This document shows, one piece after another, positions 2,215 through 63,482 of a stretch of 64,000 nt of DNA. Where the stretch lies: contig NZ_FRFC01000001.1 of NCBI RefSeq assembly GCF_900143675.1, forward strand, positions 62,001-126,000, in the 5' to 3' direction. Position numbers and translations under genes: made by a program. Below the pieces are notes generated by a model. It saw only the letters and a list, made by a program, of their open reading frames with translations, ran no database searches and had not been told where the DNA came from. The first letter of the stretch is position 1. Each line of letters opens with the position of its first letter. The stretch is from Candidatus Nitrosotalea sinensis (GTDB taxonomy: Archaea > Thermoproteota > Nitrososphaeria > Nitrososphaerales > Nitrosopumilaceae).

Positions 2215-3566
2215 TACCCGGTCCTAGAATATACTGCCTTTTTCTTATTAGATATAAAATCATTTATCAGGACTTGATCAATTTTTTCAGGATTAATGTA
2301 ATACGCTCTTCCTTGTAGGTGTTTTTCGAGATTTTCAACATAGTTTAGCAATTCTGGTTCATCACTTACCATTATAGTGTCAATTTCAATTCCTTCTTTT
2401 TTGCATTTCTTTGCTTCTTTTAATGTAGATACATCCACTACAGGATCAACTTGTTTATAGCGGTAACATAGATACACAGATTCATTTTTTATTTCCAGAT
2501 TGAGATCTTTTTCATTTTTTATTTTAGACATAGTTGCCTGATCAGGTCTATAGAAATTAGAATATGGTTTGTCAGTCAAGATTTGATTTTTTTGTAATTC
2601 ATCATCTATAAAACATGCACTTGGTTGACCGTCAGTAATCATAACAATTCTTTTATTTTGTGAACCATCTTTTTTTAGAATTTTCAATGCCAGTCTGAAT
2701 GCTGCTTGATAATTAGTATAATGAAGAAAGTTATCATTTGCATCAAATGTTTTCAAATACGGGATGTCACGAGGAGCAATACGTGACGCCAATGAACCAA
2801 AACCTATTACGTATATAGAATCATTTGGGAAAAATTTGTTATTTAACACATATAGTGCCCATAGGGCTTTTTTTGCAGCTTCTATCCTAGTTCCCATACC
2901 GGAGATTAGGGAATACTTCATGGTAGAGCTTAAATCTATACAATAAACTATTGCAATCTTTACTTCTTCTTTTGTTTCAAATTTTTCAAAATCAGAAAGA
3001 TCTATTTCTAAAGGGAGTTTCAATATCTCATGTTTTCTTTTTTGTCGTTGAAGTGCATTTAACACAGTAGAAGGAATATCAAGATGTTTGATATCATCTC
3101 CTATCTCAAGTTTTTTGCTTGTATCAAGAATTGTATTACTATATCCAATGTTCCTAGTTTCATGAAAGCCGTGTGTATCTTTTTCAACTATTTTTATTAC
3201 ATCTTCAAGAATTTTTTGTCCAATTTCAAAAAAAGCTTTTTTTGTTAGCCATTTTTTATCGGCTTTAAGATATCCAAGATTTTGTAAGCGTTTTGTAATT
3301 GGTTCATCACTATCACTGACTTGAGATATTTGTTCAGAATTGCTTTCTGACTTACTTGTTGAAGAATTTGGCATTGCACTATCAAGCATATTTTGTAGAT
3401 CAGCCAAAGATGGAATTTTTTCTTTTAGAGTTTGTGTTGCGATAATTTTGAGAGCTTGTTTAATTTTTTTATCAGAGATAACAGAAGAAGAGTTGTTTGT
3501 AGATGCATTGTCATTATTTTGAAAATACGTGAATCGAGTATTACTGGTTGCCAAAATACATACCAT
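2214..3566 (-). CDS. VWA-domain protein, partner of the MoxR-type ATPase
   Basis: About 450 aa. A low-complexity Asn/Ser-rich linker lies near residues 15-80. A von Willebrand factor A domain begins about residue 210, with a MIDAS D-x-S-x-T (CIDLSST), the TNYQAAF segment carrying the MIDAS Thr, and the third loop ITDGQPS. MIDAS domains bind a divalent metal and a client protein. With the upstream AAA ATPase this is the classic MoxR-VWA (ChlI/ChlD, RavA-ViaA, NorQ-NorD-like) pair that remodels or inserts metal into a target. The start is ambiguous: ATG 3566 or TTG 3554 both overlap the upstream stop slightly, and a longer ATG start at 3611 would overlap by 71 bp. The substrate cannot be told from sequence. 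Confidence 0.85.
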   Translation of the reverse strand: MVCILATSNTRFTYFQNNDNASTNNSSSVISDKKIKQALKIIATQTLKEKIPSLADLQNMLDSAMPNSSTSKSESNSEQISQVSDSDEPITKRLQNLGYLKADKKWLTKKAFFEIGQKILEDVIKIVEKDTHGFHETRNIGYSNTILDTSKKLEIGDDIKHLDIPSTVLNALQRQKRKHEILKLPLEIDLSDFEKFETKEEVKIAIVYCIDLSSTMKYSLISGMGTRIEAAKKALWALYVLNNKFFPNDSIYVIGFGSLASRIAPRDIPYLKTFDANDNFLHYTNYQAAFRLALKILKKDGSQNKRIVMITDGQPSACFIDDELQKNQILTDKPYSNFYRPDQATMSKIKNEKDLNLEIKNESVYLCYRYKQVDPVVDVSTLKEAKKCKKEGIEIDTIMVSDEPELLNYVENLEKHLQGRAYYINPEKIDQVLINDFISNKKKAVYSRTG

Positions 3567-5178
3567 CTTTTCTATCAAGAATTTTTGGTTCAACCCAACA
3601 AAGACCATCAAGAATTAATTCTACTACGCCAGCTTTGAATTCATCATTTACCCTTTCAGATATTTTCATCGAATCACTTGAAATTCCATACTTTTTAATT
3701 TCTGTGACAAACATCTCTTGATCAGATACAACCCTTTGGAATATCTTAGAAATAAGATCTTTTAGTGAATTGAAATCTTTCAATTGATTGTTATAAGATA
3801 GAGAGAGATCACCTGAACCAAGAATTGTTTGAGACACATGAAATGATTTTCCTGAAAATTCTTGTTTTATGGAATTAAGAACAGCGGGGTCTACAGTACT
3901 CAGGTATTCTAAAGAGGTGTGTTTTATGGAGTCAGATATGAGAATTCGTATGATTTGAGACCTATTTTCAAATGTATCATCAAGTTCAGCGAGTCCAAAT
4001 TTTATAGATTGATCAATAGAAAATATATCGCATGGTCTTGGAACAGCTAGCACATTATTAATTATGGATCGAGTTCTTTCTGATTCGCCAACAAGTAGTT
4101 CTAAACAATGTATCCCTATACGAACACTTACTCCTTTATCTTGATTTATGTCAGTACTAGAACGAGCTGTTTGTACAATTCTTGCGAGAATCTTAAGCAA
4201 AAATATCGGGATGAATGCTTTTGGAATTTTTGCTTCCTGAATAATGATCATCATTTCTTCATCAAGAGATCGTGGATAATGAGTTTGGATGTGACTTTTC
4301 AATCTATCATATAGTGGTTCTATTATTTTTCCAGAATGTGTGTAGTCAATAGGATTTGCCGTTGCAAAAAATACTGTTTTTGGTTCAAATATAACAGGAT
4401 ATGCACCAGTGGTGAATCTACCTTCTTGTAGAACAGACAACAGAGATACTTGTTTTCTAGTATCAAGAACAGGCAACTCGTCAATGCAGAATAATCCATG
4501 TTTTGCCTGCATTAGTTGCCCTGGAAAATAAGATTCAATTTCATACATTTCTGTACCTTTTTTTGTTACTCGAATTGCATCTATTTGACCAACCAGATCC
4601 TTAACAGATATGTCTGGGGTTGCCAATACATACTTGAATCTACGCAAACCATCAACCCATTCTATTTTAGTATCAAGTTTGTCATTACGAATCTTTTCCA
4701 TGCTATCACCATCAACATAAAATTGTGGAATAGACATACGATTTTCTTTGTCTTCCAGCAGAGATACTAAATTATGGGCGGGAAGATCCATTGGGCAGTC
4801 ATTAGTTATGCTACCTTTTATGACAGGCATTGGAGAAAGCAGATTGGCGGCAATTATTTGAGCTAGTTTTGTTTTCGCTTGTCCTATCTGACCAACCAAG
4901 ATCATATCATGATATGACAATATTGCGCGGTCTAGAGCTGGAACAACATCATTGTCAAAGCCAAGTATTCCAGGATATGCAATATTCTTTGATCTTATCT
5001 TTGCAATCAAGTTTCTGCGTAGTTGCTCTTTAGCACCTACTATTTTGTAATTAATTTCTAGAAGATCGCGTAGTGTTTTGATTTGAGCATAATCTTCAGG
5101 AACTCCAGCCATTATTTCAGCATATTTTGGTTCAGAACTATAACTCCGGTTGACAAGAATTTCATATTCTGAAGACAT
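3541..5178 (-). CDS. MoxR/ChlI-type AAA+ ATPase
   Basis: 545 aa. The AAA+ core has Walker A GQIGQAKTK (about residue 97), Walker B LFCIDELP (about 232), a sensor-1-like FFATANP, and arginine-rich segments (EPLYDRLKSH) typical of the MoxR/magnesium-chelatase ChlI clade. About 70 N-terminal residues precede the core and about 170 helical residues follow it, longer than minimal MoxR proteins. It sits directly upstream of, and slightly overlaps, the VWA gene. The pair presumably acts as an ATP-driven chaperone for a cofactor-containing enzyme. The gene is divergent from uS13 with 85 bp between. Confidence 0.88.
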   Translation of the reverse strand: MSSEYEILVNRSYSSEPKYAEIMAGVPEDYAQIKTLRDLLEINYKIVGAKEQLRRNLIAKIRSKNIAYPGILGFDNDVVPALDRAILSYHDMILVGQIGQAKTKLAQIIAANLLSPMPVIKGSITNDCPMDLPAHNLVSLLEDKENRMSIPQFYVDGDSMEKIRNDKLDTKIEWVDGLRRFKYVLATPDISVKDLVGQIDAIRVTKKGTEMYEIESYFPGQLMQAKHGLFCIDELPVLDTRKQVSLLSVLQEGRFTTGAYPVIFEPKTVFFATANPIDYTHSGKIIEPLYDRLKSHIQTHYPRSLDEEMMIIIQEAKIPKAFIPIFLLKILARIVQTARSSTDINQDKGVSVRIGIHCLELLVGESERTRSIINNVLAVPRPCDIFSIDQSIKFGLAELDDTFENRSQIIRILISDSIKHTSLEYLSTVDPAVLNSIKQEFSGKSFHVSQTILGSGDLSLSYNNQLKDFNSLKDLISKIFQRVVSDQEMFVTEIKKYGISSDSMKISERVNDEFKAGVVELILDGLCWVEPKILDRKDGMYFGNQ

Positions 5179-5263
5179 TCAGGTAAATTACTCCTCGAAT
5201 ACGATTTAAAGTATTATTGTTTTAGCATAGTTTTTATCGGGGATATAGGGGATTTTTTAATAC

Positions 5264-10866: not shown

Positions 10867-10887
10867 CCTTGATTACTTTTTGTGACT

Positions 10888-11124
10888 GTGTTAATTCCTG
10901 TCAGATGTTTTACTTGTGGAAATTTAATTGCCGACAAGTTTAAGGAATATCAGAGTCGTGTCAAGGGAGGAGAAGATCCGGGCAAAGTTTTAGATTCTTT
11001 TGGTTTTAAGAGATATTGTTGCAGATCTATGATTTTGACATCAGTTGAAACAATTCATCAAGTAATCCCATTTTACGAAGCTATTAAACGAAGAGAACAA
11101 GAAGTAAGATCTGAATTAGAATAG
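10888..11124 (+). CDS. rpoN: DNA-directed RNA polymerase subunit N (Rpb10)
   Basis: 78 aa from GTG 10888 (an in-frame GTG at 10882 would add two residues). The N-terminus LIPVRCFTCGNLIADK and the later RYCCRSM supply the zinc-binding Cys set of the CX2CGX...CC type. It is a small subunit of the archaeal RNA polymerase assembly platform. It heads the operon with enolase and uS2, a classic archaeal arrangement; the enolase ATG follows the rpoN stop after 1 bp. Confidence 0.96.
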   Translation: MLIPVRCFTCGNLIADKFKEYQSRVKGGEDPGKVLDSFGFKRYCCRSMILTSVETIHQVIPFYEAIKRREQEVRSELE

Positions 11125-11125
11125 A

Positions 11126-12364
11126 ATGCCACGGATCACATCGATAACGGGCAGAATATTATACAATAGCAGAGGAAGTAAAACAATAGAAGTTGATGTA
11201 ATATCAGATGAAAAATATCTGGGGAGAGTTTGTGCCCCATCAGGTGCAAGTGTTGGAAAACATGAAGCACAAAGTTTTCCTCAGGATAAACCTGAAAAAA
11301 GCATCGACATTTTACAAAAAAATAAGAAAAAATTCATTGGATTAGATTCATCAGATCTCAAAACAATTCATGAGACACTTCGAGATATTGATCAAACTCC
11401 TAATTATTCAAAAATAGGTGGCTCACTGGCATTTGCATTGACCATTGCAGCAACAGAATCTGCAGCAAGAGCATTAGAAACACCCATGTTCCAAATATTA
11501 TCAAAAGATTCAACCTTTAGATATCCACTTCCACTTGGAAACATTCTTGGTGGAGGAGCTCATGCAGGACCTGGCACACCAGATATTCAGGAAATACTAG
11601 TCTGCGCCACAGGATCTAAAAATATTCAAGATGCAATAGAAACTAATTTGTCCATACACAAAGAAGTTGGAAAAATTCTTGCAAAAAGAGATCCAAGTTT
11701 TACAAATGGAAGAGGTGACGAAGGAGGGTGGGCTCCTAAATTAAAAAATGATGAAGCATTAGAGATATCAGCAAAAGCATGTGAACAACTAGGTTTCACA
11801 TTGGGAAAAGAAGTCTCACTTGGAGTAGATTTCGCTTCATCGACTCAATGGAATGAGAAAAAGAAAAAATATGTTTACAATAGAGCAGGATTCGAAAACA
11901 CACCAGAAGAACAGATCGAATTTGCTTCAAGCATAATAAAAAAATACAAACTTGTGTATGCTGAAGATGCTGTCCACGAAGAAGCGTTCAATGATATGTC
12001 AGTGTTAACCAAAAGATTTCCACGTGTACTCATAACCGGAGATGATTTACTAGTGACAAATACTCAAATTCTTAAAAAAGCAATAAAAATCAAGGCCTGT
12101 AACGGTGCAATATTAAAGGTAAATCAGGCGGGAAGCTTATACGATGCATTGGAGTTTGCAAAAGAAGCAAATAAGAACAACGTGAGATTGATTACATCAC
12201 ACAGATCTGGTGAATCCATAGACTCGCATATATCTCACATAGGACTTGCCACCAAGTCAAAGATGCTCAAGGTGGGGATAATAGGCGGAGAACGAATAGC
12301 AAAATTAAATGAACTTGTACGACTTTCAGAGTATGATTTAATACGTGGAATGGCCGAGATTTAA
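11126..12364 (+). CDS. eno: enolase
   Basis: 412 aa. Interconverts 2-phosphoglycerate and phosphoenolpyruvate. Visible hallmarks are GRILYNSRGSKTIEVDV, APSGASVGKHE (catalytic loop), LGNILGGGAHAG, GRGDEGGWAP, the metal Asp in LGVDFAS, the Glu in AEDAVHEEA, ITGDDLLVTN, AILKVNQAGSL (catalytic Lys) and ITSHRSGES. Length is normal. In an autotroph it would act mainly in gluconeogenesis. The uS2 gene follows after 9 bp. Confidence 0.97.
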   Translation: MPRITSITGRILYNSRGSKTIEVDVISDEKYLGRVCAPSGASVGKHEAQSFPQDKPEKSIDILQKNKKKFIGLDSSDLKTIHETLRDIDQTPNYSKIGGSLAFALTIAATESAARALETPMFQILSKDSTFRYPLPLGNILGGGAHAGPGTPDIQEILVCATGSKNIQDAIETNLSIHKEVGKILAKRDPSFTNGRGDEGGWAPKLKNDEALEISAKACEQLGFTLGKEVSLGVDFASSTQWNEKKKKYVYNRAGFENTPEEQIEFASSIIKKYKLVYAEDAVHEEAFNDMSVLTKRFPRVLITGDDLLVTNTQILKKAIKIKACNGAILKVNQAGSLYDALEFAKEANKNNVRLITSHRSGESIDSHISHIGLATKSKMLKVGIIGGERIAKLNELVRLSEYDLIRGMAEI

Positions 12365-12373
12365 AAACACAGA

Positions 12374-13045
12374 ATGAGTAAACAAGAAGAACTTGATCAC
12401 ATGGAGAAATATGTGCTATCTACTGGAATACGAGTAGGAACACAAGTAAAAACAAAATTCATGACTCCATTTGTTACCAAGGCTACTAATGAGGGACTTT
12501 ACATAATTGACAGTAAAAAGACATTATCCAGAATTCAAACAGCTGCAAAGTTCATCAACAGATCAGATTCTACAAAGATAATAGTCTGTTCAGGCAGAGA
12601 ATATGCTAGCACCCCTGTTGAAAAATTTTGTGAGGTTACAGGTACAACTCCAATGCTTGGAAGATTTATGCCTGGAACTTTGACAAATCCATCATTACCA
12701 TACTACATAGAACCACAACTAGTTTTTGTGTCAGATCCACAGGTAGATGAACAGGCAGTAATTGAAGCCACCAATGCAGGTATTCCAGTAATAGGAATTT
12801 CCAATACAGACAACGTTACATCAAAGTTAGATCTTGTAATACCAGCAAATAACAGAGGTAGAAAATCATTGGCCGCAATATATTGGCTTTTGGCAAGAGA
12901 AATACTATTGCAGAAAGGCAAGATAAAAAATGCAGATTCCATGCAATATCAAATAGATGACTTTGAAACTAAAATAACAGAAGAAGAGTTAGAAGAAGAG
13001 ACAGAACGAATTCCCCCTCAGAGAACAAGAACACAGAGGCAATAA
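12374..13045 (+). CDS. rps2: small ribosomal subunit protein uS2
   Basis: 223 aa archaeal uS2. Segments GTQVKTKFMTPFV, DSKKTLSRIQTAAKFINR, GRFMPGTLTNP, EPQLVFVSDPQVDEQAV, GIPVIGISNTDNVTSKLDL and IPANNRGRKSLAAIYWLLAR are diagnostic. The C-terminus is acidic then basic (EELEEETERIPPQRTRTQRQ). It binds late to the 30S and is involved with uS1-like functions and mRNA. The MEMO gene starts 2 bp downstream. Confidence 0.97.
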   Translation: MSKQEELDHMEKYVLSTGIRVGTQVKTKFMTPFVTKATNEGLYIIDSKKTLSRIQTAAKFINRSDSTKIIVCSGREYASTPVEKFCEVTGTTPMLGRFMPGTLTNPSLPYYIEPQLVFVSDPQVDEQAVIEATNAGIPVIGISNTDNVTSKLDLVIPANNRGRKSLAAIYWLLAREILLQKGKIKNADSMQYQIDDFETKITEEELEEETERIPPQRTRTQRQ

Positions 13046-13047
13046 CA

Positions 13048-13884
13048 ATGCAGGTAAGGACGCCTGCTGTGGCAGGTATGTTCTACCCAAAAGACAAGCA
13101 AGAATTAGAGACAACAATAGAAAAATGTTTTTTACATAAATACGGACCAGAAAAATTACCACCTTCTCATACAGATAAAAAAATTATTGGCATCATATGT
13201 CCTCATGCAGGATATCAATACTCAGGTCCAATAGCTGCAAATTCTTATTATGAAATATCAGGACAGAAACCAGATCTGGTCATAATCATAGGACCGAATC
13301 ACTGGGGAATTGGACAGAACATAGCAACCATGAAAGAATGCACATGGAGAACTCCCATGGGAGACATAGAGGTAGACACTCAAGCTGCAATAGAAATCAA
13401 TAACATGGTACAACACATAGAGCTAGATTTCTTTGCGCATTCAAAGGATCATTGTTTGGAAGTACAAATTCCTATGCTTCAAAAAATATTTCAGCACACA
13501 TTCAAGATTTTACCAATAATTTTGAATGATCAGAGGTTAGAAACTGCTCTAGAGGTTGGTAAAAGCATAGCAAAAATTGCAAAAAACAGAAAAACAATAG
13601 TGATAGGATCTTCAGATTTTACACATTACGAACCAAATGACATAGCACATAAGAAAGACAAATCTTTGATAGATGCAATAGTAGAATTGAACGTGAATAA
13701 ATTTTATAATATTTTGCAAAAAAAACAGATCAGTGCTTGTGGATATGGAGCGATTGCATCCACCATGATGGCTTGTAAAGAGCTTGGAGCAAACAGTGGG
13801 ACATTAATCAGATATGCTACCAGTGGTGACATATCAGGAGATAAGAGCTCAGTGGTCGGATATGCATCGATAGTTTTTTCATGA
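13048..13884 (+). CDS. MEMO1-family protein (AmmeMemoRadiSam system protein B type)
   Basis: 278 aa. MEMO family: PAVAGMFYPKD, CPHAGYQYSGPIAANSY, IIGPNHWGIGQNIA, FFAHSKDHCLEVQIPMLQ, IGSSDFTHYEP, ACGYGAIASTMMA and GDKSSVVGYASIVFS. The fold resembles LigB extradiol dioxygenases with conserved His and Cys; eukaryotic MEMO binds copper. It sits in the conserved archaeal run uS2-MEMO-mevalonate kinase, so it travels with translation and isoprenoid genes for reasons not known. It overlaps the mevalonate kinase start by 4 bp (ATGA). Confidence 0.92.
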   Translation: MQVRTPAVAGMFYPKDKQELETTIEKCFLHKYGPEKLPPSHTDKKIIGIICPHAGYQYSGPIAANSYYEISGQKPDLVIIIGPNHWGIGQNIATMKECTWRTPMGDIEVDTQAAIEINNMVQHIELDFFAHSKDHCLEVQIPMLQKIFQHTFKILPIILNDQRLETALEVGKSIAKIAKNRKTIVIGSSDFTHYEPNDIAHKKDKSLIDAIVELNVNKFYNILQKKQISACGYGAIASTMMACKELGANSGTLIRYATSGDISGDKSSVVGYASIVFS

Positions 13885-14840
13885 AATCAGTAGCATCAGC
13901 ACCCGGAAAGATTATTCTTTTTGGGGAACATTTTGTGGTATACGGAGTAAAGGCCATACTATGTTCTATAGATAAAAGAATAATTGCCACATCTCAGTGC
14001 ATAGATGAAAAAATAATCAAAATAAAATCATCCTTAGGAGAATCAAGTATGAAACTTGATGCATTAGAGGGTTTAGACAGCATATCACCAAAATTCATGA
14101 AGCCTTTTTTTTACATCATACAGAAAACAATGAAAGAAAGAAATGAAAGCACAGGTATCGAAGTAGTTTTAGAGTCCCAAATACCGGCAGGAGTAGGCTT
14201 AGGATCGTCATCTGCCGCTTGCGTTGCAGTAGCAGCTTCGGTAAACGGTTTGTTTGGTAAATTAACAAGGGAAGAAGTATTAAAAATTGCCATCGAGGCA
14301 GAACGAACAATTTTTGAACAGAATTCAGGAGCAGATGCATCAATATCAGTATTTGGAGGATTAGCATCATATGATCGAAGTACTGGATTTCACAACATAT
14401 TATCAAAAAATAATTTGAACTTTATAATATCAAATTCAGGTCAAACCCACAATACTGAAGAAGTTGTGCAACAAGTTAAAAATTTCAAAGAAAAAAATGA
14501 GAGTCTTTTTTTCAATCTATGTAAGCAAGAAGAAGAGATAATCAGAAATGCGACTGTAGCTCTAGAAAAAAACAATATCAACGAACTTGGTTTATTGATG
14601 TCAAAGAATCACGAGTTATTAAAGAAAATAGGAGTATCTACAGAGAAGATAGATTTGATGATCAACGAAGCAAAATTGACATCATACGGAGCAAAGATAA
14701 CAGGAGCAGGGGGAGGCGGATGTACAATATCCCTGGTAGATGATCACAATAGAAAGAAAACACTAAACAATCTACAGAAAATTTCAGATTGCTTTATCAC
14801 AAGAATAGATCACTCAGGATTAAGATACGAACAGTCTTGA
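13881..14840 (+). CDS. mvk: mevalonate kinase
   Basis: 319 aa GHMP kinase. Motif 1 is SAPGKIILFGEHFVVYG, the ATP loop is PAGVGLGSSSAACVAVAASV, the catalytic Asp region is NSGADASISVFGGL, and motif 3 is YGAKITGAGGGGCTISL. It phosphorylates mevalonate to mevalonate-5-phosphate in the archaeal mevalonate pathway. It is followed after 59 bp by isopentenyl phosphate kinase, with a TATA-like box between them. Phosphomevalonate-decarboxylating steps are not encoded in this window. Confidence 0.95.
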   Translation: MKSVASAPGKIILFGEHFVVYGVKAILCSIDKRIIATSQCIDEKIIKIKSSLGESSMKLDALEGLDSISPKFMKPFFYIIQKTMKERNESTGIEVVLESQIPAGVGLGSSSAACVAVAASVNGLFGKLTREEVLKIAIEAERTIFEQNSGADASISVFGGLASYDRSTGFHNILSKNNLNFIISNSGQTHNTEEVVQQVKNFKEKNESLFFNLCKQEEEIIRNATVALEKNNINELGLLMSKNHELLKKIGVSTEKIDLMINEAKLTSYGAKITGAGGGGCTISLVDDHNRKKTLNNLQKISDCFITRIDHSGLRYEQS

Positions 14841-14875: not shown

Positions 14876-14899
14876 CAGTATACATCATTGATAAAAATC

Positions 14900-15640
14900 A
14901 TGATCCTAATTAAGCTTGGAGGTTCAATAATCACAAACAAGGAAAAACCATTAACGCCCAATAGAAATGCAATAAGAAAAATTGCATCAAGTCTCAGAAA
15001 TGTAAAAGAACCAATCATAATAGTACATGGCGGTGGTTCTTTTGGACATTATTGGTCAGTCAAGTATGATATGCATACAAAACCTCAGAAACATCAACCA
15101 AAAGGAGTTGCAGCAGTAAAGAATTCCATGGTAGATCTTAACAGAATTGTATTAGAATTATTTTTTGAATCAGGTTTGAATCCATATTGTTTACCCCCTA
15201 GTGATTTCATGATAGGGAATAAACCAAATACAGAAAAAGTAAAAGAGATTCCCAAGATAGCCAAGACCGGTTTAATACCAGTTTCATACGGAGATGCAAT
15301 GTGGTTTGGAAAGAACAAATTTTACATTTTATCAGGAGATAAAATAATGGGGATTCTTTCAAAACTATTACGTCCACGTCTGGTAATTTTTGTTACTAAT
15401 GTGGATGGAGTATATGCAGACATGAAAAGTAAGAGACTCCTAAATGAAATCACTAAGGAGATGCCAATAACTTCAGAGGTAAAAATGGACGTAACGGGAG
15501 GTATGTCTCGTAAAATAAAGGAAGCATTTACCATATCAAAGAATGGAATCAATGTTTTCTTTGTAAATGGAAACCATCCAAAAAGAATAACAAATGCAAT
15601 AAATGGCAAGAGTTTTGAGGGGACTATATTCAGGGGATAG
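14900..15640 (+). CDS. isopentenyl phosphate kinase
   Basis: 246 aa from ATG 14900 (TTG 14888 would add 4). Amino-acid-kinase fold: MILIKLGGSIITNKEK at the N-terminus, the substrate loop HGGGSFGHYW with the conserved His, ILSGDKIMGILSKLL, TNVDGVYAD, and DVTGGMSRKIKEAF. It phosphorylates isopentenyl phosphate to IPP, the last ATP step of the alternative archaeal mevalonate route. The next gene starts 1 bp after the stop. Confidence 0.94.
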   Translation: MILIKLGGSIITNKEKPLTPNRNAIRKIASSLRNVKEPIIIVHGGGSFGHYWSVKYDMHTKPQKHQPKGVAAVKNSMVDLNRIVLELFFESGLNPYCLPPSDFMIGNKPNTEKVKEIPKIAKTGLIPVSYGDAMWFGKNKFYILSGDKIMGILSKLLRPRLVIFVTNVDGVYADMKSKRLLNEITKEMPITSEVKMDVTGGMSRKIKEAFTISKNGINVFFVNGNHPKRITNAINGKSFEGTIFRG

Positions 15641-15641
15641 T

Positions 15642-16283
15642 ATGGAATATCTAATCCTAGTAGATAGTAATGATAAACAGATAGGAACTGAAGAGAAAGT
15701 AAAATGCCATTTGCCTAACGGGAAACTTCATAGAGCTTTTACCATATTTTTGTTCAACAGGGAAGGAAAACTTTTGCTTACTCAAAGAAGTATGAGTAAG
15801 ATGCTATGGCCTGGAGACTGGGATGGAACTGTGGCAAGCCATCCAAGGCAATCAGAAAATTACATCTCTTCTGCAGAAAGAAGATTACCAGAAGAATTAG
15901 GAGTAACATGCAAGCTAGACTATCTCTATAAATTTGAATACCATGTACCATACAAAGACATAGGATCAGAAAACGAAGTTTGCGGAACATTGATTGGAAT
16001 ACTAGATGATCCTACAGGAATAAAACTTGTAAAAGATGAGATTTCAGACATAAGATGGGTATCTTTAGAACAAGTATCAGCAGAGATTATTAATTCACCG
16101 CAGATTTTCTGTCCTTGGATGTTAGTTGCACTCTATTTCTTATCAGAGTCAAGTCAAAACATTAACGATAGACACAAAGAGATTATCAACAAGTGGAAAA
16201 ATAATGAGCAACTTAGAAACAATCTAGAAAAATCATTAGAGTATCATTTTCCAGATCATAAATGGGAGCTTAAAAAAGAATGA
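15642..16283 (+). CDS. idi: type-1 (Nudix) isopentenyl-diphosphate isomerase homologue lacking the catalytic Cys
   Basis: 213 aa from ATG 15642. It aligns by eye with Escherichia coli Idi: metal His23 and His30 (KLHRAFTIFLFN), QRSMSKMLWPGDW, a SHP motif with metal His67, GSENEVCG with metal Glu110/Glu112, and a C-terminal CPWM. Where E. coli has the catalytic Cys67 in VCGHP, this protein has Ala65 in VASHPR (codon GCA 15834-15836). A long C-terminal helical tail covers about residues 170-213. It either isomerises by another mechanism or is a Nudix hydrolase on isoprenoid phosphates. The operon position (IPK before, prenyltransferase after, ATGA overlap) ties it to isoprenoid metabolism; the usual archaeal occupant of this slot is the unrelated type-2 isomerase. 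Confidence 0.85.
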   Translation: MEYLILVDSNDKQIGTEEKVKCHLPNGKLHRAFTIFLFNREGKLLLTQRSMSKMLWPGDWDGTVASHPRQSENYISSAERRLPEELGVTCKLDYLYKFEYHVPYKDIGSENEVCGTLIGILDDPTGIKLVKDEISDIRWVSLEQVSAEIINSPQIFCPWMLVALYFLSESSQNINDRHKEIINKWKNNEQLRNNLEKSLEYHFPDHKWELKKE

Positions 16284-17263
16284 AATTTGAAAATATTACA
16301 AAAACAGTATCTACTGTAGATTCATTTCTTGCATCCAGACTCAGAGGAGAACCAAGAGAATTATACAGTGCTGCGAGCTATTTGATAGAACACGGAGGAA
16401 AACGACTCAGACCATACATGGTGATCAAAAGCTGTCAAATTGTAGGAGGAAATAAGAAACAGGCAATGGCTGCTGCTGCCGCAGTTGAAATGGTGCATAA
16501 TTTCACACTTGTTCATGATGACATAATGGATAATGATGAGATGAGACATGGAGTTCCTACAGTTCACATGCGATTTGGAATGCCGGTGGGAATTCTAGCT
16601 GGAGATTTATTATTCTCTAGGGCATTTGAGACTATATCAAATCCATATTTTGGTAAGACAGCCAGTATTGGTTTGAATTTAGTATCTACCCTAGCAAAGG
16701 CTTGTACTGATGTATGTGAAGGACAAACGCTTGACATCAACATGGCAAAATCAAGTAAGATACCAAGTGAGGATCAATACATAAAAATGATTGAAAAAAA
16801 GACATCATCATTATTTGTAGCATCTTGTGCTATGGGAGCAATATCAGCCGACAAAAATGATGCAGATGTCAAAAGATTATCCACATTTGGAAGAAATTTA
16901 GGAATTGCGTTTCAGATAATTGATGATTTAATCGGTGTCACGGGGGATCCAAAGATTACAAAAAAACCAGTAGGAAATGACATCAGGGAAGGAAAAAAAT
17001 CACTACCAATTCTCATGGCAATAAAAAAAGCAAGCAAGCAAGAAAGGAGAATCATCCTCAAAGCATTTGGAAATCATACTGCTTCAAAAACAGAAGTACA
17101 AAAGGCAGTATCAACAATTGCTGCCCTTGGAATTGAGAGTGCAATCAAGCATAAAGCTCTGCAACATTCCAATGTTGCCAAGAAATCAATATCAACATAC
17201 AATGGAACAGCAAAAAATGAATTACTCTCATTACTTGATTTCGTGGTAGAGAGGAGCCTATAA
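16280..17263 (+). CDS. idsA: geranylgeranyl/polyprenyl diphosphate synthase
   Basis: 327 aa trans-prenyltransferase. Visible features are HGGKRLRPYMVI, the first Asp-rich motif VHDDIMDNDEMRHG, GILAGDLLFSRAFE, CEGQTLDINMA, KTSSLFVASCAMGA, and a second motif FQIIDDLIGVTGD with Gly in the last Asp position. It condenses IPP with allylic diphosphates, most likely to GGPP for archaeal ether lipids. Its start overlaps the upstream Nudix stop by 4 bp, and the gltX TTG follows its stop directly. Confidence 0.94.
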   Translation: MKFENITKTVSTVDSFLASRLRGEPRELYSAASYLIEHGGKRLRPYMVIKSCQIVGGNKKQAMAAAAAVEMVHNFTLVHDDIMDNDEMRHGVPTVHMRFGMPVGILAGDLLFSRAFETISNPYFGKTASIGLNLVSTLAKACTDVCEGQTLDINMAKSSKIPSEDQYIKMIEKKTSSLFVASCAMGAISADKNDADVKRLSTFGRNLGIAFQIIDDLIGVTGDPKITKKPVGNDIREGKKSLPILMAIKKASKQERRIILKAFGNHTASKTEVQKAVSTIAALGIESAIKHKALQHSNVAKKSISTYNGTAKNELLSLLDFVVERSL

Positions 17264-18970
17264 TTGAGTGATGATGTAAAGAGAGTAATAAGAGGTATTG
17301 CTCTTCTTAATGCATCAGAACATGATGGTAAGACTAGAAATGATTCAGTTATTCCAAAAGTGATGGGAATCAAACCAGAACTTCGCTCAAAAATCAAAGA
17401 GATAATTCCGCTCATTTCAGAAATTGTAGAAGAAGTTAACAAATTATCAGTTGAATTACAAAAAGAGGAACTCAAGAATAAATATGCAGAACTTTTAGTA
17501 ACAAAACCAAAACAAGAAAGAACTGGGCTTCCACCACTTGAAGGAGCAGAACAAGGAAATGTAATAACCAGATTTCCACCAGAGCCAAATGGTTATCCAC
17601 ACATAGGTCATGCAAAGGCTTCAATCATAGATGAAGAATATGCTAAAATGTATGGTGGAAAACTCATTCTAAGATTTGATGACACCAATCCAGAAAAGGA
17701 GCGCCTAGAATATTATGCGGCCATAAAAGTAGGCCTAGATTGGCTTGGAGTCAAATATGATCGTGTAAAAAATACTTCTGATGACATGGAGATAATCTAC
17801 AGTAAAGCTAGAGAACTTATTGATTCAGGCGATGCATACGTATGCACATGTGACAAAGAGACAATTAGCAACAATAGAAGAGAGAAGAAATCATGCAAGT
17901 GTAGTTTAGGAGATAAGGATCAAAACATAACTCGATGGAATAAAATGTTCGATAAATTCAAGCCGGGAGAAGCAATAGTAAGGTTCCGAGGAAATATGAA
18001 TTCAGACAATACAGTGATGAGAGATCCTACGTTACTTAGAATAATAGACGAATCTCATCCAATTCACAAGGATAAGTACAGAGTATGGCCAAATTATGAC
18101 TTTGCAGTAGCAATAGAAGACAGCATAGATGGAATAACACATGCTTTTAGAACAAAAGAATATGAATTACGAACAGAGCTCTATTACACATTACTTGATA
18201 AAATGAATATGCGGAAACCAAAGATGTTAGAGTTTTCAAGATTAGAATTTCAAGGGATGCCCGTATCCAAACGAGTTTTGAAACCGTTAGTAGAGGAGGG
18301 AAAAGTATCAGGGTTTGATGATCCCAGACTTCCCACTTTAGAGGGATTACGTAGAAGAGGTATTGTTCCAGAAGCTATTAGAAAATTTATTCTTTCGTTA
18401 GGATTTACCAAATCTGATACTATGCCACCATTTGAGACACTTGAATCGTTTAACAGAAAGATAGTTGATCCTACCAGTGTAAGATTGTTCATTGTTTTTG
18501 ATCCTGTAAAGCTAAGAGTCATCAACAATAATCTTACCGAGATAGAGATTTCAAATCATCCACAAACAGAGATGGGTAAAAGAAAGATTGCAATAGATGG
18601 AACTTTCTACATATCAGGAGACGATGCAAAAACATTGAAGATTGGAGAGGAGATAAGATTACTTGAAGCATATAATGTTAGAATAACAAAGATAGGACAA
18701 GAAATAGAATGTGAGGTTATTGATACAGGTCATAAATCAAATATACCAAAGATACAATGGATTACACAAAAAAATCCTGTGAATTTAGAGGTGTTGATAC
18801 CAAAAATACTATTCAATGATGACCAATTTAACGAAGATAGTCTAGAAGTCAAGAAGGCTTTAACAGAGCAATACTACTTAGAATTAAATGTGGGATCAGA
18901 AATTCAGTTCATAAGATTCGGATATTGCAGAAAAGATTCTGCAAACCAAGCGATATACACACACAAGTGA
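17264..18970 (+). CDS. gltX: glutamyl-tRNA synthetase (archaeal class Ib type)
   Basis: 568 aa from TTG 17264. An archaeal N-terminal extension of about 100 helical residues precedes the catalytic core. Core motifs are RFPPEPNGYPHIGHAKA (HIGH), LRFDDTNPEKE, and the KMSKS-equivalent GMPVSKR. A Cys-rich insert (YVCTCDKETIS, KKSCKCS) may bind zinc. The C-terminal half is the GlnRS/archaeal-GluRS beta-barrel. It charges tRNA-Glu and, in archaea lacking GlnRS, also tRNA-Gln for transamidation. It follows idsA with no gap. Confidence 0.95.
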   Translation: MSDDVKRVIRGIALLNASEHDGKTRNDSVIPKVMGIKPELRSKIKEIIPLISEIVEEVNKLSVELQKEELKNKYAELLVTKPKQERTGLPPLEGAEQGNVITRFPPEPNGYPHIGHAKASIIDEEYAKMYGGKLILRFDDTNPEKERLEYYAAIKVGLDWLGVKYDRVKNTSDDMEIIYSKARELIDSGDAYVCTCDKETISNNRREKKSCKCSLGDKDQNITRWNKMFDKFKPGEAIVRFRGNMNSDNTVMRDPTLLRIIDESHPIHKDKYRVWPNYDFAVAIEDSIDGITHAFRTKEYELRTELYYTLLDKMNMRKPKMLEFSRLEFQGMPVSKRVLKPLVEEGKVSGFDDPRLPTLEGLRRRGIVPEAIRKFILSLGFTKSDTMPPFETLESFNRKIVDPTSVRLFIVFDPVKLRVINNNLTEIEISNHPQTEMGKRKIAIDGTFYISGDDAKTLKIGEEIRLLEAYNVRITKIGQEIECEVIDTGHKSNIPKIQWITQKNPVNLEVLIPKILFNDDQFNEDSLEVKKALTEQYYLELNVGSEIQFIRFGYCRKDSANQAIYTHK

Positions 18971-61817: not shown

Positions 61818-63482
61818 CTACATTAGAGATTGGGATGCTTGGTGCATCATCTGGCTCTTTGCACAGCCTGCTGCTAGTTCGTCACCAGAGCCTCTTCTCA
61901 TGATTCCTCTGTAAAGACCGTCTTCTAGCTTGGCACCGACTCTTTGCTCCCATTCTTCTACGGAGATGGAGTATTTCTTTTGGATTCTGTCTCTGTACCA
62001 CTCTGGAATTACGTTAAATGCGCAGAATGGTACAATTCTCAAGTCTGGTGTAAGATAGTGAATATCACATCTTTGGAGTCTCTCAAGGTCTTCGTTGTAC
62101 TTGTCCTGGAAGTGCATCATTCCAAGGAACAATCCCTTGACATGCCAGGAGCCTACTGAGTTAAATGATCTCTTCATCAGTATGCTTCCAAACATCTTTG
62201 CAAGGTCAAGACCTGCAGGCTGTTTCTTTTTATCGATAAAGCTTGATAGTTTTCTTACTACCTCAAGCATTGTAAAGTACTTGTTCTTGCCGGAGCGTAT
62301 CTCTTCTGCCTTGTCTTCAAAGAGCTCAAGCATTCCTTGGATATCGGCAAATCTTGTCAATGGGACAAATTTCTTTGTCTCTGCATCTTCAAAGATGTAT
62401 GTTCCTGCACCACATGCAAAGTGGATTGACAGTTCATACTTTGGTTTGCTTGAGAATGCTTCAATGACATTTGTTAGAGGCATGCAGCTTGGGACTGGGA
62501 ACCAGTCATCTACTGTTACCTCACCATTTGTCTGCTCTTCAATTCTTTGTATACAGTCTGGTATTGTGATTCTGTATTTTTCACGCTCTTTCTTGCCCAT
62601 TCTTCCTGTAAGGGAGACAGGCTGGAAGTTTACTGCGTGAACTACATCCATGTTCTTTTGTGCATATCGAATTATTGGGCCAAGTTCGTGATCATTGATT
62701 GATTTGATTACAGTTGGGACAAATACTACAGTTGTTCCGGTCTTTCTTGCACTTTCTAGTGCATATGGAATCTCCCAATGGTTCTTTGGATTTGTTCTTG
62801 GTGTTACACCATCAAAGCTGAGATACAAGTTGTTGACACCTGCAAGTCTGACTTCTCTCATTGCTTCTGGGTCTAACGCAAATCTGATTCCGTTGGTGTT
62901 CATCTGTATGTGATCAACACCTTCTTGTTTCATTATTTTGATAACATCAACAATATCTTCTCTGAGCATTGGTTCACCACCAGTAATCTGCATCGAGTTT
63001 CCTGGGATTGGTCTTTCTGCCTTGAGTGTCTTCATCATTGCTCTTACTTGGTCTTGGGATGGTTCATACATGTATGCACCTTCTAGTCCCTTCTTTACAT
63101 AGAAGAAGCAGTACCAGCAAGTAAGATCACATCTGTTTGTAACTATCATGTTTGCAAGTCCACTGTGGGACAAGTGATTGGAACATAGACCACAGTTGTT
63201 TGGACAGGAGCACTTGTCAATCATTACGTTTGGAGCATGTGCACCCTTGCCGTCAATCCAGTATGTACTGAATTTCTTGTACATATCATAAGAGCCAAAA
63301 TAGAGTTCTTCACATTCGCCGTGTGTTGGGCAGGTCTTTGTCATGAAGACCTTGCCATCTCTTTCGAAAACTTCTGCGTCAAGTATCATGTTACAGTCAG
63401 GACAGATACTCTGAGTAAATCTTATAGTTGATTTCTTTCCTAGAGTAGGAGTCTTCTGATTAGATATCTGAATTAATTCCAT
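61818..63482 (-). CDS. tes: Tes-like radical SAM enzyme (tetraether lipid synthase family)
   Basis: 554 aa. N-terminal zinc-like CPDCNMILDAEVFERDGKV, KTCPTHGECEELYF, then CSCPNNCGLCSNH; radical-SAM motif VTNRCDLTCWYCFF (Cx3Cx2C), MQITGGEPMLREDIV, MNTNGIRFAL; C-terminal Cys-containing CDIHYLTPDLRIVPFCAFNV. This order of extra Cys clusters matches the Tes family (Methanocaldococcus MJ0619-type), which joins C16 carbons of two archaeol units to make GDGT tetraethers. Ammonia oxidisers make crenarchaeol, which needs this. Alternative: a related radical SAM of other function. Monocistronic, divergent from the TrmB gene. Confidence 0.8.
   Translation of the reverse strand: MELIQISNQKTPTLGKKSTIRFTQSICPDCNMILDAEVFERDGKVFMTKTCPTHGECEELYFGSYDMYKKFSTYWIDGKGAHAPNVMIDKCSCPNNCGLCSNHLSHSGLANMIVTNRCDLTCWYCFFYVKKGLEGAYMYEPSQDQVRAMMKTLKAERPIPGNSMQITGGEPMLREDIVDVIKIMKQEGVDHIQMNTNGIRFALDPEAMREVRLAGVNNLYLSFDGVTPRTNPKNHWEIPYALESARKTGTTVVFVPTVIKSINDHELGPIIRYAQKNMDVVHAVNFQPVSLTGRMGKKEREKYRITIPDCIQRIEEQTNGEVTVDDWFPVPSCMPLTNVIEAFSSKPKYELSIHFACGAGTYIFEDAETKKFVPLTRFADIQGMLELFEDKAEEIRSGKNKYFTMLEVVRKLSSFIDKKKQPAGLDLAKMFGSILMKRSFNSVGSWHVKGLFLGMMHFQDKYNEDLERLQRCDIHYLTPDLRIVPFCAFNVIPEWYRDRIQKKYSISVEEWEQRVGAKLEDGLYRGIMRRGSGDELAAGCAKSQMMHQASQSLM

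Follow-up and report, generated by a model that had tools for sequence, protein, structure and literature searches.

A cysteine-free homologue of type-1 IPP isomerase, conserved across an archaeal family, in the operon slot of the type-2 enzyme

Introduction

The isoprenoid lipids of abundant ammonia oxidisers, including the tetraethers that serve as climate proxies, all need DMAPP. The locus described here, from Candidatus Nitrosotalea sinensis, specifies a type-1 IPP isomerase (IDI1) homologue with alanine at the position of the catalytic cysteine. In characterised IDI1s a cysteine and a glutamate are critical, the glutamate protonating the substrate and the cysteine, as a thiolate, taking the proton, as set out in PMC3547716, which cites Street 1994 and Wouters 2003. 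The occurrence of IDI1 in Thaumarchaeota and Haloarchaea has been noted before, the thaumarchaeal enzyme being ascribed to bacterial transfer (Lombard et al. 2012, PMC3533463); the gene studied here is presumably that thaumarchaeal IDI1, and the accessible portion of that paper makes no mention of a missing cysteine or of an exclusion of the type-2 isomerase (IDI2, encoded by fni). In the literature searched, outside of which most subscription papers fall, no description was found of a thaumarchaeal IDI1 without the cysteine, of its in-place swap for IDI2 or of the threonine-type group described below. All coordinates refer to the window, the stretch of 64,000 nucleotides that was analysed (positions 62,001 to 126,000 of contig NZ_FRFC01000001.1).

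Results

The gene at 15642..16283 on the plus strand specifies a protein of 213 amino acids plus stop, and its assignment as a Cys-free IDI1 homologue draws on the profile models TIGR02150 and NF002995, an AlphaFold2 model and dN/dS. In profile searches the protein scored 124.1 bits with TIGR02150 (IPP_isom_1; cut-off 105.8) and 136.7 bits with NF002995 (cut-off 127), and gave no match to the IDI2 model TIGR02151; TIGR02150 scores fall slightly under the cut-off for part of the family and for the threonine-type proteins. The start codon is likely that at 15642, an alternative in-frame ATG at 15603 being located within ipk. The AlphaFold2 model of the protein, built with 37 sequences (pLDDT 79.2, pTM 0.81), has the Idi fold, with Salmonella Idi (3hyq) as the closest match (Z 13.0, rmsd 2.9, 146 residues aligned) and E. 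coli Idi (1hzt) as the second (Z 12.3). Other Nudix chains follow within about 1 Z of the Idi matches, and the fold by itself therefore does not tell IDI1 from other Nudix proteins.

Alignment with Cys-type IDI1s and with threonine- and alanine-type relatives located the altered site at residues 61-68, DGTVASHP (15822..15845, plus strand), in which Ala65 (codon GCA, 15834..15836, plus strand) is the counterpart of E. coli Cys67, and Asp61-Gly62 stand where canonical IDI1s have (T/S/A)-Asn. Two further differences are His101 (15942..15944, plus strand), which is invariant in the family and is Arg or Lys in canonical IDI1s, and Cys157 of the CPWM motif at residues 157-160 (16110..16121, plus strand), where canonical IDI1s have Ser or Thr. 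The metal positions His23, His30, His67, Glu110 and Glu112 are kept, as are the diphosphate-site positions Lys19, Arg49, Lys53, Arg81 and Glu85, along with Tyr100 and Trp159, the equivalents of E. coli Tyr104 and Trp161; we take the roles of all these positions to be those in E. coli Idi. The preliminary description of this DNA, which had read the gene as a type-1 isomerase homologue with alanine for the catalytic cysteine and with the five metal ligands and the CPWM tail retained, is thus borne out by both models and alignment.

The alanine is a property of the whole family (f1), which we infer to be Nitrosopumilaceae, the nearest named genomes being those of Nitrosotalea and other Nitrosopumilales. 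Alignment of 109 distinct family sequences, with identities down to approximately 48%, showed the motif W-D-G-T-x-A-S-H-P, with Ala at the Cys position in all 109, while one remoter relative has D-A-T instead of D-G-T. The metal, diphosphate, Tyr and Trp positions are invariant across these sequences, including the complete His3Glu2 metal site and the equivalents of E. coli Glu116, Tyr104 and Trp161, and Asp61, Gly62, His101 and Cys157 are fixed or almost fixed, unlike in Cys-type IDI1s. The TNxxC motif that carries the catalytic cysteine is replaced by Asp61-Gly62 with Ala65 in every one of the 109, and the protein is therefore classed as a Cys-free IDI1 variant rather than as a canonical member. 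Median dN/dS within the genus is approximately 0.065, with dS near saturation, so that the figure is a sign of strong constraint and not an exact measure of it. As the alanine is invariant and is encoded by four synonymous codons (GCA, GCT, GCC and GCG), sequencing error and local mutation were both ruled out as its source; the conservation in thaumarchaeal homologues, for which the preliminary description had proposed a check, was thereby established. A search of viral contigs for Ala-type genes yielded none, and the plasmid matches listed were less than 40% identical, the five plasmid IDI1s examined all having Cys.

The gene is embedded in a cluster of which the order is rpoN-eno-rpsB-memo-mvk-ipk-X-ggpps-gltX, all on the plus strand. 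The genes for RNA polymerase subunit N, enolase, ribosomal protein S2 and Memo (10882..13884; Pfam) and, at the downstream end, that for a glutamyl/glutaminyl-tRNA synthetase (17264..18970; PF00749) occur in the same order in other families. Between them are the genes for mevalonate kinase (13881..14840; TIGR00549, 222 bits, over cut-off), isopentenyl phosphate kinase (IPK, 14900..15640; NF040647, 217.9 bits, over cut-off) and, overlapping the IDI1 homologue by 4 bases, a short-chain, GGPP-synthase-like prenyl diphosphate synthase (16280..17263; NF041003, 318 bits, below the cut-off of 500). A TTG at 14888, in frame and four codons before the ATG at 14900 (MILIKLGGS), is probably too early to be the IPK start. 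The position X, between IPK upstream and the prenyltransferase downstream, is held by IDI2 in a sister family (L152) and by the Cys-free IDI1 in the window and its relatives with the rest of the order the same, and the swap is a replacement in place. Both the isoprenoid operon with adjacent IPK and the use of this slot for the type-2 isomerase in other archaea had been proposed from the sequence, and the surrounding mevalonate kinase, IPK and prenyl synthase genes, together with fni in the slot of the sister family, agree with these proposals. The gene owes its position next to IPK to the ancestral operon, in which IDI2 also adjoins IPK. In the L151 lineage (genome G082; 2624-5242) the Cys-free IDI1 gene is still beside the prenyl synthase gene, with IPK on another contig.

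The distribution of the gene is complementary to that of IDI2. In a phylum sample of 300 genomes, the gene is present and IDI2 absent in all 44 family genomes, while IDI2 is present in 245 of the 256 genomes outside the family, the sister families having IDI2 and no such gene. In an order sample of 400 genomes, 207 family genomes (a count from the listing) have the gene and again none has IDI2; in at least 20 family genomes the gene was not detected, and of those listed the majority are incomplete, although one (G439) is rated 99% complete. The IDI1-positive and IDI2-positive lists of this sample share only six genomes, of which five had weak matches (E above 1e-8) and one (G365) has a Cys-type IDI1. 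The latter, a 275-aa reading frame (L199), coexists with IDI2 in that genome and may be a contamination or a late transfer.

Within the genome from which the window derives, the IDI2 model gave at best 17.9 bits, to an unrelated stretch, and no second idi or fni was found, so that the genome-wide search proposed in the preliminary description returned no other isomerase gene; one combination that it had named as fatal to its reading, cysteine in close relatives and fni elsewhere, does not apply, with Cys in 0 of the 109 sequences and IDI2 absent from genome and family alike. AcnX, UbiD homologues and IPK are present in this genome. IspH was searched for there and not found, by which a MEP-type source of DMAPP was ruled out.

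Cys-free IDI1s occur in other archaea. A second family of the same order (f62) has an IDI1-like gene with the motif W-D-V-S-x-T-S-H-V, in which Thr is at the Cys position and Asp61 recurs. In this family 35 genomes have the Thr-type gene and are without IDI2, while four have IDI2, with fni beside ipk in the operon, and are without the Thr-type gene (Fisher p 1.2e-5, a value that ignores the relatedness of the genomes). The operon of a complete genome of this group (G306) reads rpoN-rpsB-memo-mvk-ipk-ggpps-gltX with no fni and a gap of approximately 176 bases between ipk and ggpps, and no fni was detected in the whole chromosome at E 1e-4. In this genome (L210 9207-9743, L254) fni is thus absent from an otherwise intact operon and the Thr-type IDI1 gene is located elsewhere. 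A third, very divergent relative (L203; L215 6826-7401 of genome G324), from a family (f61) that is not among the genomes with IDI2, has W-D-I-T-M-A-G-H-P, with Ala at the Cys position. Asp61 is present in all Cys-free IDI1s seen, and in none of nine Cys-type IDI1s and none of 12 hydrolases, a pattern that comprises few independent changes. In the phylogenetic tree the IDI1s, Cys-free forms included, form one branch separate from the Nudix hydrolases (support 100/99), and a single clade of the Cys-free forms is not rejected (AU p 0.11-0.17).

Discussion

The gene at 15642..16283 is a strongly conserved, family-wide Cys-free variant of type-1 IPP isomerase, and it is probably the IPP:DMAPP isomerase of this organism, a Cys-independent type-1 enzyme that replaced IDI2 in the family ancestor at the same operon slot. 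Judging from sequence, conservation, purifying selection, distribution, synteny, predicted fold and the lack of another recognised source of DMAPP, the Cys-free IDI1 is most likely the essential isomerase, and its active site is best read as having been rebuilt. The Nudix-fold, metal-dependent type-1 enzyme would have supplanted the FMN-dependent IDI2 in the family ancestor. A route through phosphomevalonate dehydratase (AcnX) and a UbiD-type decarboxylase would lead to IP, which IPK would phosphorylate to IPP; the Cys-free IDI1 would then convert IPP to DMAPP, and the adjacent synthase would condense IPP with DMAPP. Protonation at C4 would proceed as in E. coli Idi, with the metal bound by His23, His30, His67, Glu110 and Glu112 and with Glu112 and Tyr100 taking part, while the C2 proton would be taken by a group other than cysteine, which we infer to be one of the candidates Asp61 (invariant), His101 and Cys157, or Glu112 via a water molecule.

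The preliminary description had raised another possible role, that of a Nudix hydrolase engaged in a futile or regulatory cycle with IPK, in which IPP and DMAPP are cleaved to monophosphates that IPK re-phosphorylates; in an extension of this idea DMAP would be supplied for prenyl-FMN synthesis. The Nudix fold, the IPK neighbour and the UbiD homologues in the genome are in keeping with such a diphosphatase, as are the numerous Nudix hydrolases that the fold search returned at Z 10-12, and the pair Glu84-Glu85 recalls the EE of the Nudix box; the latter was rejected as a sign of a hydrolase, however, as Cys-type isomerases have both residues. The Nudix box GX5EX7REUXEEXGU itself is broken, with Ser66 in place of Gly and Arg81 in place of the first catalytic Glu (of REUXEE). 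All 109 family sequences have Arg at position 81, a feature shared with true IDI1s, whereas in the 12 IDI-like Nudix hydrolases compared, from the same phylum, this residue is always Glu, and Tyr100 and Trp159, which the family keeps, are missing. Were the protein a hydrolase, no recognisable DMAPP-making enzyme would be left in these archaea, and the gene occupies the IDI2 slot and, in the L151 lineage, has remained beside the synthase despite the departure of IPK. The hydrolase proposal is thus disfavoured, and we regard it as quite unlikely.

Gene order and adjacency to IPK would equally suit an isomerisation at the monophosphate level, from IP to DMAP, after which IPK would yield both IPP and DMAPP, and an altered substrate could lessen the requirement for cysteine. 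The counterparts of the E. coli Idi diphosphate positions are invariant, however, and in the L151 lineage IPK lies apart from the gene, which makes this route highly improbable. It is unlikely, too, that an unrecognised enzyme is the isomerase and the Cys-free protein a binding or regulatory relic, or a protein with another Nudix-type role. The catalytic cysteine is absent and the searched literature records no activity for the Cys-free protein, and the IDI2 exclusion and synteny are correlations that might equally point to an unrecognised isomerase acquired simultaneously; against this, strong purifying selection maintains the full metal and substrate site, and in two lineages that differ in the position of the gene, in the operon or elsewhere, IDI2 is absent wherever a Cys-free IDI1 is present.

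If the Cys-free IDI1 makes DMAPP, as we consider probable, the textbook requirement of type-1 isomerases for cysteine fails, and the enzyme offers a natural experiment on the groups that the proton transfers require. A more tentative proposal is that the Cys-free proteins may form a separate catalytic class of IDI1, present in at least two archaeal families, with another acid/base pair (for example one including Asp61) and repeatedly swapped with IDI2 in either direction. The WDGTVASHP motif may also be present in haloarchaeal IDI1s, in which case the Cys-free class would extend further and its donor could already have been without the cysteine. The locus also exposes an annotation gap, as curated models label the gene a normal isomerase despite the absence of the catalytic residue.

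As compared to E. coli Idi and human IDI1, the window protein has in common the fold, the His3Glu2 metal site, the diphosphate residues, the Tyr104 and Trp161 equivalents and an Arg for the catalytic Glu of the Nudix box; it differs from canonical IDI1 in Ala for Cys, Asp61-Gly62 for (T/S/A)-Asn, His101 for Arg/Lys and Cys157 for Ser/Thr, and from E. coli Idi in a C-terminal extension. The type-2 isomerase, which holds the same operon slot in sister families and presumably catalyses the same reaction, is an unrelated FMN enzyme absent from the window's family. YfcD-type IDI-like Nudix hydrolases (NF041653) share the Nudix fold and some His/Glu positions, but have Glu81 and neither Tyr100 nor Trp159, and the window protein scores far below their model cut-offs. 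A parallel in the missing residue is the human paralogue of IDI1, also named IDI2 (PDB 2pny, chain 2pny_A), in which Cys is likewise absent, TDSCSSHP having Ser there, and Asp replaces the preceding Asn three residues before the Cys position, the archaeal forms also having a nearby Asp. This human protein has weak isomerase activity, and it differs from the window protein in carrying Ser rather than Ala, in the place of its Asp (position 62, against 61 in the window protein), and in coexisting with a normal IDI1.
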